Assembly (NCBI GenBank): GCA_903867185.1
Contig: CAIPQK010000154.1
Location: 1 to 49,772, forward strand
Reading direction: 5' to 3'
Origin: an uncultured Candidatus Nemicrothrix sp.
GTDB taxonomy: Bacteria > Actinomycetota > Acidimicrobiia > Acidimicrobiales > Acidimicrobilacustridaceae
Length of the DNA: 49,772 bases
A model generated the notes under the pieces. It was not told the DNA's origin, did no database searches, and worked only from the letters and a program-made list of their open reading frames with translations. The stretch's first letter is position 1, and every line of letters begins with the position of its first letter. Both the position numbers and the translations under genes were made by a program. Positions 30,193-35,808 of this stretch are shown here, piece after piece.

Positions 30193-31839
30193 ATGGCTGT
30201 GCATCGCCCCGAACCCCGGGACGACGCCGATCCCCCCGAGGATGCAATGCCCGTCGAGGCTTCTGGCCCCGACGTTGACGCGACCATCCCGGGCTGGAGT
30301 CGTGCATCGCTGTTCGGCGAGGACACCGAAACCATCTTTACGAAAGATCCCTCGGATCGACCAGGTTTCCACGTTCGTCTTTTTGGTAGCCACGAGTTTT
30401 TCCGACTTTGGCTCGTGCAGGTTGTCTCCGCCACGGGCGATTGGTTGGGCTTCTCCGCGATCATCCTCTTAGCGGCCACCATTGGCGGCGGCGCTGGTGC
30501 TGGTGCGATTTCACTTGTCATGGCCGCGCGCATCGTGCCTGGGTTTTTCTTTGGCCCACTCGCGGGCGTGCTTGTTGATCGTTGGGATCGCAAGAAGGTC
30601 ATGGTCACCTGCGATATCGGACGAGCAGTTGTGATGGTGCTGCTTCCGTTCGTCAGCGATGTCATTGGGCTCGTACTGGCATCGCTTGTTCTTGAAGTTC
30701 TCACGCTGTTGTGGGGTCCGGCGAAGGATTCGGAAGTTCCGAACTTGGTTCCCCAGGAACACTTAACGACAGCGAACTCGTTGTCGCTGGCAGCGGCCTA
30801 CGGAACCTTTCCCTTCGCGTCGTTGTTGTTTGCACTGCTCGCAGGATTGTCAGTGTGGATTGGCCGAGTTCCTGGACTTGGGTGGCTCGAGAACAATCAG
30901 ATGGCATTCGCGTTTTATGCCGATGCACTCACATTCGTTTTCTCGGCGTGGATGATTAGCCGACTCACATTCCCTAAGCGGGAACGGCGCGTCCGAACGA
31001 CTGCCGAGGATGAACGACGAGTCGATGTCAAGGCCACACTGCAAGAACTTCGTGAGGGCTGGAACGAAATTTGGAAGAACCACACCGTTCGCGCCGTGAA
31101 TCTTGGACTTGCCACGGGACTGATCGGTGGCGGCATGCTTATTCCGCTCGGCGCGGTGTTCTCGACCGAAGTTCTCGATGCTGGCGCGGCAGGGTACGGA
31201 CTGTTCACCACAGCGCTCGGCTTTGGTGTCGCGATTGGTGTTGTTGGAGTATCGGCATTCCAGAAGCGATTGCCTCAAACCACAACGTTCACCGCTGCAC
31301 TCTTTGTTGCGGGCATAGCGTTGTTCTGCGCCGCATCATCTTCGTCGTTGTGGGCTGCTGTGATCTTCGTCGGGCTGATGGGGATTGCTGTCGGCCCGGT
31401 TTACGTTCTCGGTTTCGCAATGCTCCAACAAGAAGTCGCCGATGATCTTCGCGGTCGTGTCTTCAGTTCGCTCAACACCCTTGTTCGCATGTGCGTACTA
31501 ATTGCGATGGTCGCCGGCCCGTTGCTTGCTGCCATCCTTGGTCGCATTGCATCAACGATGATCAATAATCGCGTTGATCTCGGAGGTAAGACACTTGAAC
31601 TTCCTGGCGTACGTCTCGCGCTTTGGCTTGCTGCGCTGATCATCATCGCCGCGGGGTTTGTTGCTGGAGCTTCGTTGCGCGCAGGCCAGCGAACGAAGCG
31701 TGCCGGCGCGTCCGATCATCCTTCGCGGCCGAACCCCCCTGATCCACAGCCGCTTGATTTCACGCCGATCGATCTGCGCCCGGCTGGCCCGGCACCTGAA
31801 CCCCACCCCGACGACGAAGCTTCCGGAGAACCGACATGA
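30193..31839 (+). CDS. MFS transporter (MFS_3/EntS-like)
   Basis: A 548-residue major facilitator. An acidic, proline-containing hydrophilic N-terminus (about 65 residues) precedes the first helices; the motif-A-like loop GVLVDRWDRKKVM lies between helices 2 and 3. About 12 helices follow to residue 500, and a proline-rich cytoplasmic tail ends the protein. The family exports siderophores and drugs; the substrate is unknown. It is coupled by ATGA overlap to tmk. Confidence 0.9.
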   Translation: MAVHRPEPRDDADPPEDAMPVEASGPDVDATIPGWSRASLFGEDTETIFTKDPSDRPGFHVRLFGSHEFFRLWLVQVVSATGDWLGFSAIILLAATIGGGAGAGAISLVMAARIVPGFFFGPLAGVLVDRWDRKKVMVTCDIGRAVVMVLLPFVSDVIGLVLASLVLEVLTLLWGPAKDSEVPNLVPQEHLTTANSLSLAAAYGTFPFASLLFALLAGLSVWIGRVPGLGWLENNQMAFAFYADALTFVFSAWMISRLTFPKRERRVRTTAEDERRVDVKATLQELREGWNEIWKNHTVRAVNLGLATGLIGGGMLIPLGAVFSTEVLDAGAAGYGLFTTALGFGVAIGVVGVSAFQKRLPQTTTFTAALFVAGIALFCAASSSSLWAAVIFVGLMGIAVGPVYVLGFAMLQQEVADDLRGRVFSSLNTLVRMCVLIAMVAGPLLAAILGRIASTMINNRVDLGGKTLELPGVRLALWLAALIIIAAGFVAGASLRAGQRTKRAGASDHPSRPNPPDPQPLDFTPIDLRPAGPAPEPHPDDEASGEPT

Positions 31840-32447
31840 CGCGCGGAAAGTTCATTGCGTTTGAGGGTGGCGAGGCCTGCGGAAAATCGACTCAGTCGCA
31901 ACGTTTAGCAACCGCGATCGATGCAGTGCTCACTCGCGAACCGGGTGGAACCGTTATCGGTGCGCAATTGCGTGCTGTTCTTCTCGATCCGCAAACAGTC
32001 AACCTTTCCGATCGCGCTGAAGCACTTCTCATGGCTGCCGATCGCGCGCAGCACGTTGCAGAAGTTGTGGAGCCGGCGTTGGCATCGGGACGTCATGTCG
32101 TCACCGATCGCTTTGCGGGTTCATCGATCGCCTACCAGGGCCATGGCCGCGGACTCCCGGTGAGCGAAATTCGCGACCTCTCGCTGTGGGCAACGGATGG
32201 CGTATGGCCCGACCTCATCGTTCTTCTTGATGTCCCCGAGGCCGAAGCCGATCGTCGTCTCGGTTCCTCTCGTGATCGGATGGAGTCAGAACCGGCGTCG
32301 TTCCATGCAGCAGTGATGGAAGGTTTCCGAGCCCAAGCGGCAGCCGAACCAGATCGTTGGGTGGTGATCGATGGCACCCCTTCGATCGAAGAGGTTTCCG
32401 CTGCGGTGTTCGCTGTCGTCGCTGAGCGGCTACAACTGCCTCTGTGA
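31836..32447 (+). CDS. tmk: Thymidylate kinase
   Basis: A 203-residue kinase phosphorylating dTMP to dTDP. The P-loop is FEGGEACGKSTQ. The conserved TREPGG and VVTDRFAGSSIAYQG elements bind substrate, and the lid region SSRDRMESE is present. ATG overlaps the MFS stop (ATGA), and its own stop overlaps holB (GTGA). The topA/tmk/holB grouping is a common actinobacterial order. Confidence 0.97.
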   Translation: MTRGKFIAFEGGEACGKSTQSQRLATAIDAVLTREPGGTVIGAQLRAVLLDPQTVNLSDRAEALLMAADRAQHVAEVVEPALASGRHVVTDRFAGSSIAYQGHGRGLPVSEIRDLSLWATDGVWPDLIVLLDVPEAEADRRLGSSRDRMESEPASFHAAVMEGFRAQAAAEPDRWVVIDGTPSIEEVSAAVFAVVAERLQLPL

Positions 32448-33535
32448 CATCACGCACCGACTACCCGCCGCTGTCGGCGGAACTCGCTGGAATTGAACTC
32501 TGGGCCAATGTCGTCGGCCAGGACGATGCAATTGGCGAACTTCGTGCTGCAGTCAACGCGCCGGTACACGCGTACATGCTGGTTGGTCCGCGCGGAAGTG
32601 GAAAGCGCGAACTTGCTCGAGCGTTTGCTGCAGCGCTCGTAAGTCGTGATCGCACGGGCGACGATGCTGTGCGGCAAGCGCGAATGGCGTTGATGCAAAA
32701 TCATTCCGACATCACTGAGTTCGAACGAGTTGGTGCATCGATTTCTGCCGAGCAGGCCGATGCAATCATTGCGACCGCAGCGCGTTCCTCGATCGAGAAT
32801 GGTCCGAAGGTTCTCATTCTTGATGAGTTCCATCTTGTGACAACCGCTGCTCCAAAGTTATTGAAGACCATTGAAGAACCGCCCGCCGGAACGGTGTTTG
32901 TGGTTCTCGCTGACGATGTTCCGAATGATCTCGTGACAATTGCGAGCCGATGTGTACGCATCGATCTTGCAACGATCACTGACGATGTGGTCACCGAGCG
33001 ATTGATCGCCGAAGGTGTCGCGCCTGACCGAGCTGCCGATGCGGCCGCCGCTGCTGTCGGAGACCTCGGTCGCGCACGGTTGTTGGCAACTGATGATCGG
33101 CTTGCGTTACGACGTGCTGCATGGCGCGCTGTTCCTGATCGCCTCGATGGCACTGGTGCACGCGCAATCGAAACCGTCGACGACCTGTTAGCGATGATCG
33201 AAGATGCCATGGCTCCATTGGCCGAGGCCCACGCCGCAGAAGTTGCCGAGTTCGCCGAACTCGTTGCCTCGCGTGGCGAACGCGGTTCGGGTCGCAAGCA
33301 GTTCGAAGATCGGCATAAACGCGAAGTCCGTCGATACCGAACTGATGAAATTCGTGCCGGCCTCACGGAACTTTCTCGTCGCTACCGCGATGATCTCGCG
33401 GCTTCACCTCGGCCTGCTGAGATCGCTGGTGCGATTGACGACATCGCGACTTTGGCCACAAATCTGGTGAGGAACCCCAACGAGCGACTGCAGTTGGTGG
33501 CGCTCTTTACGAAACTTGGCCGACCCCATCATTGA
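32444..33535 (+). CDS. holB: DNA polymerase III delta' subunit
   Basis: A 363-residue clamp-loader subunit. The Walker-A-like loop LVGPRGSGKREL, a VLILDEFHLV Walker B-like strand and the sensor region LLKTIEEPPAGTVFVVL match DnaX-related clamp-loader proteins, and the C-terminal half is helical. The zinc-binding cysteines of typical delta' are absent. GTG 32444 overlaps the tmk stop. Confidence 0.9.
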   Translation: MTSRTDYPPLSAELAGIELWANVVGQDDAIGELRAAVNAPVHAYMLVGPRGSGKRELARAFAAALVSRDRTGDDAVRQARMALMQNHSDITEFERVGASISAEQADAIIATAARSSIENGPKVLILDEFHLVTTAAPKLLKTIEEPPAGTVFVVLADDVPNDLVTIASRCVRIDLATITDDVVTERLIAEGVAPDRAADAAAAAVGDLGRARLLATDDRLALRRAAWRAVPDRLDGTGARAIETVDDLLAMIEDAMAPLAEAHAAEVAEFAELVASRGERGSGRKQFEDRHKREVRRYRTDEIRAGLTELSRRYRDDLAASPRPAEIAGAIDDIATLATNLVRNPNERLQLVALFTKLGRPHH

Positions 33536-33537
33536 GT

Positions 33538-33566
33538 CCACTCGCCGAGTGGGTCGTTTCCGACCC
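33538..33566 (+). other. Two mutually exclusive hairpins before tRNA-Thr
   Basis: Hairpin A (ccactc/gagtgg, 33538-33552) and hairpin B (gggtcg/cgaccc, 33551-33566) share bases 33551-33552, so they cannot form together. They lie just after the holB stop and could be a terminator. Confidence 0.4.
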
Positions 33567-33572
33567 GGCGGC

Positions 33573-33578
33573 TAACCT
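33573..33578 (+). promoter_or_regulatory. Possible -10 box TAACCT of the tRNA-Thr/sigR unit
   Basis: The hexamer lies 12 nt before the mature tRNA 5' end, predicting a transcription start near 33585. No strong -35 is visible. Confidence 0.35.
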
Positions 33579-33589
33579 CATCGCTTCCC

Positions 33590-33662
33590 GCCCGGGTAGC
33601 TCAGACGGCAGAGCAGCTCACTCGTAATGAGCAGGTCAGGAGTTCGATTCTCCTCTCGGGCT
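33590..33662 (+). tRNA. tRNA-Thr (anticodon CGT)
   Basis: A complete 73-nt cloverleaf. Acceptor stem GCCCGGG pairs with CTCGGGC (one G-U), discriminator T. D stem GCTC/GAGC, anticodon stem GCTCA/TGAGC with loop CTCGTAA (anticodon CGT, reading ACG), T stem AGGAG/CTCCT with loop TTCGATT. The 3' CCA is not encoded. The next coding sequence starts only 3 nt after the discriminator base. Confidence 0.97.
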
Positions 33663-33665
33663 CTG

Positions 33666-34256
33666 ATGGCCGATCAAAAAGCGTTTGCTGAGCAGGCAAT
33701 GGAGTACATGCCGCAGTTGTATTCCACCGCGCTTCGAATGACCCACAACGCGTCTGATGCGGAAGATCTTGTTCAAGAGACGTATCTCAAGGCCTACAAA
33801 GGTTTCGCAGGTTTTGAGCAAGGTACGAATTTGCGAGCCTGGATGTTCCGTATCCTGACCAATACCTACATCAACTCGTATCGGTCGAAGAAGCGCCGTC
33901 CCGAAGAAACAGAACTGGACGATGTTGAAGATTTCTATCTGTACCGACGGATGGGTGGACTTGAAGCCGTTCGTGCGGGTCGCAGTGCCGAGGATGAACT
34001 TATGGACTTGTTCTCCGATGCCGAGGTGCAGAGTGCAATCGATGCGCTGCCAGAGTCCTATCGGCTCGCGATATTGCTGAGCGATGTCGAAGGGCTTTCG
34101 TACAAGGAAATTGCCGAAGATCTCGATATCCCGATCGGTACCGTCATGAGCCGGCTTCACCGTGGAAGAAAAGCACTCCAAAAGCAGTTACATGACTATG
34201 CCCTTGAGCGGGGACTGACCGATGCCATTCCCGAAGCCTCCTTGGAAGCGCCATGA
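33666..34256 (+). CDS. sigR: ECF sigma factor, SigR/SigH type
   Basis: A 196-residue group 4 sigma factor. Region 2 ([29 protein letters not shown] split over two segments, [19 protein letters not shown]) and region 4 ([39 protein letters not shown]) closely resemble the actinobacterial thiol-oxidative-stress factors SigR and SigH. ATG 33666 is the first sensible start; an ATG at 33627 lies inside the tRNA gene. Its stop overlaps a zinc anti-sigma gene (ATGA), the usual SigR-RsrA pair. There is no room for a Shine-Dalgarno sequence after the tRNA 3' end. Confidence 0.9.
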
Positions 34257-34585
34257 CCCACGACCCCAACTCTCCATCCGGCGTTCCTTTTGCCGTCACG
34301 CCCGACTGCGAAAAGGTGATGGCCGAGGTCTACAGCTTTCTTGATCAGGAACTCACCGATGCCATGCGGGCGAGCATCGCGGCTCATCTTGAGTCGTGTA
34401 GTCCCTGCTTCGAGGTGTTTGATTTCGAGGCGGAACTTCGAATGGTGATCTCGACCAAGACCCACACCGTGGAGATTCCCGACACGCTTCGTATCCGCAT
34501 CGAAGAGAAACTGACCTATCTCCGAATCGAAGGATCTGGGGGGACCGAGTCCGGCGGTGGCGGAGAGCCTCGCCGAGAGGCATAG
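34253..34585 (+). CDS. rsrA: Zinc-binding anti-sigma factor, RsrA/RshA type
   Basis: A 110-residue protein with the ZAS motif: Cys19, His45, Cys49 and Cys52, with the same spacing as the Cys11/His37/Cys41/Cys44 zinc site of RsrA. In that family, reduced protein sequesters the sigma factor, and disulfide stress releases zinc and frees it. It overlaps the sigma gene by 4 bases. Its stop codon TAG forms part of the -10-like box for the next small gene. Confidence 0.9.
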
Positions 34586-34588
34586 AAT
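34583..34588 (+). promoter_or_regulatory. -10 box TAGAAT, leaderless-type
   Basis: The box ends 7 nt before ATG 34596 and overlaps the rsrA stop codon. TAGAAT is close to the bacterial -10 consensus. Confidence 0.5.
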
Positions 34589-34595
34589 TAGAACT

Positions 34596-34730
34596 ATGAA
34601 TCTTCTGTTCGCGCAGGTATGGGCATTTTGGATTGCGCCGGTTCTGGTCGCCTCGGCAATCGGGGTCTTGGCAGTAATGATCGGCCTGTACCTGAAGAAG
34701 GTCGTCGCTCCCCGCTATCCCAAGCGCTGA
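34596..34730 (+). CDS. Small membrane protein (44 aa)
   Basis: It encodes 44 residues, MNLLFAQVWAFWIAP followed by a hydrophobic helix (VLVASAIGVLAVMIGLYL) and a basic tail KKVVAPRYPKR. A single transmembrane helix with a positively charged C-terminus is predicted. Homologues are not recognised. The start is supported by the TAGAAT box. It precedes the metalloprotease gene by 4 bases, so they may be co-transcribed. Confidence 0.65.
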   Translation: MNLLFAQVWAFWIAPVLVASAIGVLAVMIGLYLKKVVAPRYPKR

Positions 34731-34734
34731 GCTT

Positions 34735-35808
34735 GTGGCCGCAGCGGTCGATTGGGGAGTAGCCGAACGGGTTGCGATCCGCACGTCGAAGAAGGATCCC
34801 TTCGCCGCTAGCTATCACTATCAATCGCTGCAACCCGATTTCGATCGTTTAACGGCGATCGCTGAAGAGTTGGTTGCACAAGAAACCGGACTTCGATCAC
34901 TCGCCGGTCCTGCTCGCGCTCGAGTCACCGATCGGCCCGGCTGGATCCGCGCCAACCTCGCGTCGTTTCAACGTTTGCTGGCACCAATGCTCGAAAAGTT
35001 TGGCGATCGCGTTTCCTCGAGTCGCGTTGCACCGCTGACCGCTCGAATTGCTGGTGCCGAACTCGGAGTAGTCCTCGGTTGGATGTCGGCCCGGGTGTTG
35101 GGTCAGTACGACTTACTTGTGATCGAAGAAGAGAATCCGCAGGACCAGGACATCGTTTATTACGTGGGTCCAAACGTGCTTGCGCTTGAGAAGCAGTTTG
35201 CGTTTCCACCGGAAGAGTTCCGCATGTGGCTGGCGTTGCACGAGGTCACACATCGCGCTCAGTTCACCGGAGTTCCTTGGCTCCGAGAACATTTCCTCGG
35301 ACTCGTTCATGAAACAATGAACACCATTGACCCCGACCCGGCTCGCGTGAGCGAGACCGTCGCTCGGGTCACTGCTGCAATTCGTGCTGGGAAGAAACCA
35401 CTGGCCGATGGCGGACTAGTCAATCTGATCGCCAGTCCTGAACAACGCGTAGTGCTCGATCAGGTGAGCGGCATGATGAGTCTTCTCGAAGGACACGGCG
35501 ACATCACGATGGATCGGGCTGGTCACGACCTTGTTCCGAGCGCCGATCGCTTTTCAAAGGTTTTGCGTGAGCGACGCGAATCAGCGCGCGGTATGGCGAA
35601 AGTTTTTCAGCAGTTGATTGGCCTGCAAGCCAAGTTGGCGCAGTATGCCCAAGGAGAAGCGTTCATCACGGAAGTTGAACGCGCGGGCGGCCAACCGTTG
35701 TTGTCTCGTGCATGGGAAGGGCCAGAGAATCTTCCGAGCATCATCGAGATTCGCGAACCGCGTTTGTGGATCGAGCGCATGGCTGCTCCGCTTCCGGTTG
35801 CTGGCTGA
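34735..35808 (+). CDS. Zinc metalloprotease-like protein, DUF2342 family
   Basis: A 357-residue protein with the HExxH-type metal motif LHEVTHRAQF near residue 165, surrounded by the family's usual segments (YVGPNVLALEKQFAFPPEEFRMW before it, DRAGHDLVPSADRF later). The family is actinobacterial, is found beside tilS and hpt, and has been annotated as a zinc-dependent metalloprotease or as associated with F420 biosynthesis; its real substrate is unclear. GTG 34735 follows the small gene closely. Confidence 0.85.
   Translation: MAAAVDWGVAERVAIRTSKKDPFAASYHYQSLQPDFDRLTAIAEELVAQETGLRSLAGPARARVTDRPGWIRANLASFQRLLAPMLEKFGDRVSSSRVAPLTARIAGAELGVVLGWMSARVLGQYDLLVIEEENPQDQDIVYYVGPNVLALEKQFAFPPEEFRMWLALHEVTHRAQFTGVPWLREHFLGLVHETMNTIDPDPARVSETVARVTAAIRAGKKPLADGGLVNLIASPEQRVVLDQVSGMMSLLEGHGDITMDRAGHDLVPSADRFSKVLRERRESARGMAKVFQQLIGLQAKLAQYAQGEAFITEVERAGGQPLLSRAWEGPENLPSIIEIREPRLWIERMAAPLPVAG

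Follow-up and report, generated by a model that had tools for sequence, protein, structure and literature searches.

In the window analyzed here (the entire 49,772-nucleotide stretch of DNA, from an uncultured Candidatus Nemicrothrix sp.), the gene for a sigR-type sigma factor begins almost directly after a tRNA-Thr(CGT) gene. This arrangement raises the question of how the sigR mRNA acquires its 5' end, and of how a ribosome finds a start codon that has so little sequence before it. The first-pass annotation of this DNA proposed that the 5' end may be made by tRNA processing. Based on a comparison of related genomes, we consider it probable that the tRNA gene, sigR and rsrA form one transcription unit, and that processing of the tRNA 3' end produces a near-leaderless sigR mRNA. 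The following sections describe the locus, its conservation, its probable origin, and the explanations that compete with this one.

Anatomy of the locus

The proposed junction was confirmed by a covariance model and by the sequence itself: tRNA-Thr(CGT) ends at 33662, and a 3-nt spacer separates it from the ATG at 33666. Rfam model RF00005 assigns the tRNA a length of 73 nt at 64.8 bits, which is above the gathering score, and the discriminator read from the sequence is T33662. ARAGORN called the tRNA at 33590-33663, which is one base too long as judged by the acceptor stem. Of the assembly's 44 identified tRNA genes, this one alone has the anticodon CGT; the other Thr tRNAs have TGT and GGT. 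Features of the locus are listed in Table 1.

Table 1. Features at and around the tRNA-sigR junction, in window coordinates
Feature	Position	Strand	Basis
tmk (dTMP kinase), upstream gene	31836..32447	+	NCBIfam TIGR00041, 147.6 bits (cut-off 83.25)
holB-like (DNA polymerase III delta'), precedes tRNA	32444..33535	+	NCBIfam NF005926/TIGR00678, E 1e-45 and 2e-33, under curated cut-offs
-10-like TAACCT, presumed tRNA promoter, 11 nt 5' of tRNA	33573..33578	+	seen directly
tRNA-Thr(CGT)	33590..33662	+	RF00005, 64.8 bits; ARAGORN
In-frame ATG inside anticodon arm	33627..33629	+	set by tRNA sequence
3-nt spacer CTG, at tRNA positions 74-76 (CCA slot)	33663..33665	+	read from sequence
sigR-type ECF sigma factor, 196 aa	33666..34256	+	Pfam Sigma70_r2, Sigma70_r4_2
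rsrA-type zinc anti-sigma factor, overlapping the end of sigR (ATGA)	34253..34585	+	NCBIfam TIGR03988, 70.3 bits (cut-off 62.5)

The best NCBIfam model for the sigR-type protein is TIGR02947 (SigH_actino; 233.1 bits, under the cut-off of 251.55). The translation of the rsrA-type gene contains HLESCSPC, which has the form HxxxCxxC. In a scan of the region 32800-35200, two terminator-like matches were found where 2.2 are expected, and one promoter-like match where 0.8 is expected, the latter under a strict sigma-70 rule that also misses TAACCT; none of these matches is at the junction. Between holB and the -10 element of the tRNA promoter, the window has GCCGAGTGGGTC (33544-33572), and several close relatives have the palindrome TCCGATCGGA. 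Each of these is a possible operator or -35 region.

Conservation within the genus

A family search covered 37 genomes and found SigR in 36, of which 21 belong to the genus of the window. These 21 genomes amount to 20 distinct sequences, or 19 when the window is set aside. The distance between tRNA and ATG is exactly 3 nt in all 21 (20 fetched loci and the window), a recurrence that speaks against a chance arrangement, while SigR identity drops to 72% across the genus. Among the 20 distinct sequences, the spacer is CTG in 13, CTC in six and CCC in one. The constant length is weak evidence on its own, because few indels are expected where there are few substitutions, and we do not use it as proof of selection. 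Two MAG contigs titled Bifidobacterium breve (L005 and L006) carry the locus of this genus with 98% identical SigR, and their labels are probably wrong.

A TANNNT hexamer is located 10-15 nt 5' of the tRNA in all 19 other distinct sequences; its distance from the tRNA varies (10, 11, 13, 14 or 15 nt), in loose contrast to the constant distance between tRNA and ATG. The stretch from holB to the tRNA differs greatly between the deeper branches of the genus, except for a GGCTANNNT-like block. Immediately before the sigR ATG, neither TANNNT nor even TA is found at 5-10 nt (counted from the hexamer end) in any of the 19 sequences. An SD sequence (AGGAG or GGAGG) is likewise absent from all 19.

Start signals in relatives outside the genus

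For a broader comparison, we used the loci whose SigR matched that of the window best; these loci are mutually related and do not constitute a census of the class. There were 102 loci, of which 82 are distinct, and 30 loci were taken from a wider search in which 279 of 395 genomes had a SigR match. Loci L046, L094 and L148 were dropped because the start codon was unresolved at the first matched residue, and L047 and L048-L057 are outside the analysis. With distances to a close tRNA counted from the discriminator, the 60 loci outside the genus consist of 50 without a tRNA within 60 nt and 10 with one.

Loss of the close junction in relatives, which the first-pass annotation named as an observation that would refute its idea, does not occur within the genus (the junction is kept in 21/21) but does occur outside it: the junction is absent from all 15 sigR-positive genomes in the family's other genera. 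In relatives outside the genus, the sigR start codon is at the matching position and is preceded by other signals. When no tRNA is close, this signal is usually a putative promoter: TANNNT occurs 6-9 nt before the start codon in 39 of the 50 loci, compared with a mean of 1.1 and a maximum of 5 in 500 shuffles. TA is present in the 5-10 nt range in 45 of these loci, AGGAG or GGAGG in two, and TANNNT and SD are both absent in nine.

When tRNA-Thr(CGT) is located 20-56 nt upstream (10 loci), an SD sequence is found in seven (shuffle mean 0.5), TANNNT in two and neither in one (L031). This variant, in which an SD lies between tRNA-Thr(CGT) and sigR, is represented by L029, L035, L036, L038, L039, L040 and L043, and also by L157; the 21-nt spacer in genome G054, for example, contains GGGAGG. 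Four further loci, outside the main counts, have the tRNA 21, 45, 82 and 106 nt upstream of sigR (L157, L158, L159 and L160, respectively). Of these, L157 has an SD and L159 has TANNNT. L158 and L160 have neither, so our rules for start signals miss some signals.

By these rules, the lack of both signals is thus not unique to the genus of the window, but this is the only genus whose spacer is too short to hold an SD. Across the loci compared, most sigR genes are predicted to be leaderless, or else SD-led behind a tRNA trailer.

Origin of the arrangement

The gene order MFS-tmk-holB-tRNA-Thr-sigR is shared by two further loci of the genus (L161 and L162). In another genus of the same family (g11), the order is MFS-tmk-holB-tRNA-Thr(CGT)-insert-sigR-rsrA, with inserts of about 0.9 kb (L155) and 1.84 kb (L154). 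Elsewhere in the order, among the matches listed, the tRNA is between 21 nt and many kilobases from sigR, or is on another contig. Given the gene order in g11 and these scattered distances, the neighborhood therefore seems older than the genus, whose junction is the extreme form of it. In the simplest reading, a segment between the already neighboring tRNA-Thr and sigR genes was probably lost, and with it sigR's own leaderless promoter.

Proposed processing of the tRNA-sigR transcript

The idea that tRNA processing creates the 5' end of the sigR mRNA is supported because neither of the two start signals found in most relatives is present in the genus, and the junction is kept in 21 of 21 genomes. 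Of the original proposal, this part is well supported by comparison, with the cleavage itself a prediction. Transcription would begin at a housekeeping promoter before the tRNA (-10 TAACCT, 33573-33578), or would read through from holB. RNase P would trim the 5' end of the tRNA, and RNase Z, or an actinobacterial activity that cuts after C74, would cleave at its 3' edge. The 5' end of the sigR mRNA would then be 0-3 nt before the AUG, and the ribosome would initiate on a practically leaderless message. Co-transcription, the cut, its position, leaderless translation and the loss event are all steps that we infer.

The length of the leader depends on where the cut is made. A cut after the discriminator may leave 3 nt, a cut after C74 may leave 2 nt, and a cut at the AUG may leave none. 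The first-pass annotation assumed the first case, a CTG-ATG end. However, in P. acnes, a species without an obvious tRNase Z, some tRNAs are cut between the Cs (PMC3848588), and in the assembly of the window a C directly follows the discriminator in all 43 of the 43 other tRNA genes (full CCA is encoded in only 21; L097-L129), so the sigR leader may be 2 nt or less. This C in all 43 genes would fit cleavage after C74 and subsequent repair of the end.

A cut made further downstream could spoil the sigR start. In S. coelicolor, cuts are described a few nucleotides downstream of several CCA-less tRNAs (PMC4681348), and a similar cut here could land in the sigR start. If maturation of this tRNA instead began with a cut downstream and continued by exonuclease trimming, it would destroy the sigR mRNA and not produce it.

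In two actinobacteria, 5' ends left by endonucleases have been mapped to the 3' edges of tRNAs (PMC3848588, PMC4681348), and a streptococcal RNase Z is reported to cleave directly 3' of the discriminator (PMC8549757). In the genome of the window, a 273-residue protein scores 367.9 bits against NCBIfam NF000806, the model for ribonuclease Z, whose cut-off is 363; this candidate carries HLHSDH and three cysteines (33, 177 and 184). An RNase PH gene is also present. NF000806 is matched above its cut-off in 16 of the 21 genus genomes and not in the other five, two of which are more than 90% complete. RNase Z activity is only predicted, because NF000806 is narrow (none of 14 control genomes passes it) and because the general RNase Z model TIGR02651 was passed by none of 11 genomes.

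Leaderless mRNAs are common among actinobacteria, accounting for nearly a quarter of mRNAs in mycobacteria (PMC4633059) and 33% in C. glutamicum (PMC3890552). Our window has a signature of this kind: TANNNT is found 6-9 nt before ATG or GTG in seven of 46 chosen ORFs (7/111 codons), and in 0/111, 2/181 and 0/168 codons of the control sets. A 3-nt leader may be weak, because RTG codons at +2 to +5 in mycobacteria gave fewer N-termini than those at +1 (4/558 versus 51/1098), a result that its authors call not definitive (PMC4633059). A weak sigR start could be useful, just as in Streptomyces a poor GTC start holds SigR below RsrA (PMC5472188).

Alternative explanations

The close junction could also consist of two independent genes that merely abut, with a promoter inside the tRNA gene that yields a triphosphate-ended leaderless sigR mRNA. 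Relatives frequently have leaderless promoters at sigR (the 39 of 50 loci above), and the tRNA contains the weak hexamers CGTAAT and GATTCT, 37 and 14 nt before the ATG. Nonetheless, TANNNT is absent from the tRNA and spacer in all 20 distinct genus sequences, window included; none of the 19 others has TA where a leaderless promoter would place it; and the tRNA sequence allows little freedom for a promoter to evolve. An ECF-type motif is present only 170-192 nt upstream, within holB, in seven of the 20 sequences, and no such match is near the junction. We therefore rejected a promoter within the tRNA as a candidate, and regard independent transcription as unlikely. A SigR-dependent autopromoter was also rejected. 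The match GGAAC-N17-GTT at 33471-33495 is inside the holB coding region and appears to be coding-driven, and no conserved GGAAY-N15-19-GTY was found within 300 nt upstream of sigR, where the only matches are in holB coding sequence, again in 7/20 (the window plus six more, with 13 lacking it).

It is also conceivable, though we think it quite improbable, that the tRNA-sigR transcript is translated uncut and inefficiently beside the folded tRNA, so that cutting merely degrades the sigR mRNA and acts as a brake. Streptomyces requires SigR to be made at a low level, and its GTC start keeps SigR below RsrA (PMC5472188); the downstream cuts in S. coelicolor (PMC4681348) would be compatible with such a brake. 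Against this stand the missing SD in 19 of 19 genus sequences and the folded tRNA, which at the start codon would presumably leave a ribosome no room. Moreover, tRNA-Thr(CGT) is expected to be matured, because it is intact and is the assembly's only CGT-Thr tRNA.

The first-pass annotation further suggested a second protein, in which unprocessed RNA is translated from the ATG at 33627 to give SigR a 13-residue extension alongside the form made from processed mRNA. This in-frame codon, 39 nt upstream, straddles the border of the anticodon loop: its A is the last base of the loop, and its TG opens the 3' strand of the stem. Both the ATG and the open frame are found in all 19 other distinct genus sequences, in which the extension has two sequence versions, but the tRNA sequence, together with the constant spacer, makes both inevitable, and no ribosome-binding site is seen before this ATG. 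The known SigR' extension, in addition, has 58 residues and arises from another promoter (PMC5472188). We accordingly discarded the longer isoform, for which we see hardly any chance.

Other tRNA-ORF junctions in the assembly

Same-strand ORFs of at least 70 codons were sought near the 3' ends of the other 43 tRNA genes. One of these genes is at a contig end with only 2 nt downstream, leaving 42 assessable. Two short ORFs (86 and 75 codons) begin within 5 nt of a tRNA, both at +2, and no ORF of more than 100 codons does so among the 42. The nearest starts of ORFs above 100 codons are at +6, +15 and +19. The ORF at +6 follows tRNA-Pro(CGG), has a GTG start and 163 codons, and is without a Pfam match. 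Among four ORFs of more than 100 codons near tRNAs, two match Pfam, with earliest possible starts at +15 and +19. Genome-wide punctuation of the mitochondrial type is not found in this assembly.

Relation to known systems

Mitochondrial mRNAs released by tRNA punctuation are almost leaderless. In that system, cuts by RNase P and RNase Z release the mRNAs from longer transcripts (PMC10941002, citing Ojala, Montoya and Attardi 1981). The locus of the window resembles it in having a tRNA flush with a reading frame and no room for a ribosome-binding site. It differs in that only one junction is involved, in a bacterium, the tRNA is presumed to have its own local promoter, the gene encodes a regulator, and the cleavage is predicted. 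Because the junction is single, bacterial, and cut only by inference, we do not classify it as a proven member of the punctuation class.

Transcripts that combine a tRNA and an mRNA are known in bacteria, including the E. coli tRNA-tufB operon, in which tufB has its own leader with an SD. Precursor tRNAs are also cotranscribed with other genes in Streptococcus oligofermentans (PMC8549757). At the junction in the window, the spacer cannot accommodate a leader or an SD. The locus is like actinobacterial leaderless mRNAs (PMC4633059, PMC3890552, PMC3848588) in lacking an SD and in a start codon that would coincide with the 5' end or lie close to it. In those mRNAs the 5' ends are transcription starts, whereas here the end would come from cleavage; and unlike ordinary leaderless genes, sigR in this genus has no -10 element at the start codon (0/19).

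As in Streptomyces sigR-rsrA, the gene for the ECF sigma factor precedes one for a zinc anti-sigma factor. According to PMC5472188, Streptomyces sigR is transcribed from promoter p1 and SigR-dependent promoter p2, its translation starts at GTC, and p2 yields a SigR' form extended by 58 residues. None of these features was found at the genus locus. In the open-licence literature, as judged by titles and abstract openings of the papers listed, we found no report that tRNA processing generates the 5' end of a bacterial mRNA beside its start codon.

Implications

In S. oligofermentans, peroxide leads to the oxidation and breakdown of RNase Z, and precursor tRNAs rise in amount (PMC8549757). If the enzyme here were similarly sensitive, oxidative stress would block release of the sigR-rsrA mRNA, and the tRNA-sigR precursor would build up. 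We see only a slender chance that such a redox gate operates; if it did, one cut would set both the supply of tRNA-Thr(CGT) and that of SigR. Even without such a gate, the processing model would make SigR production depend on maturation of the tRNA, and a regulatory role is possible.

Across relatives, this one locus appears in alternative states: a leaderless promoter, an SD with a short tRNA trailer, and a direct fusion. The locus is suited to asking whether a nearly leaderless 5' end that carries a monophosphate, as left by processing, can serve bacterial ribosomes. If the processing model is true, a bacterial tRNA gene replaces both the promoter and the ribosome-binding site of a protein-coding gene throughout a genus, by the logic of mitochondrial punctuation, and the synthesis of a stress regulator is tied to the maturation of a tRNA.
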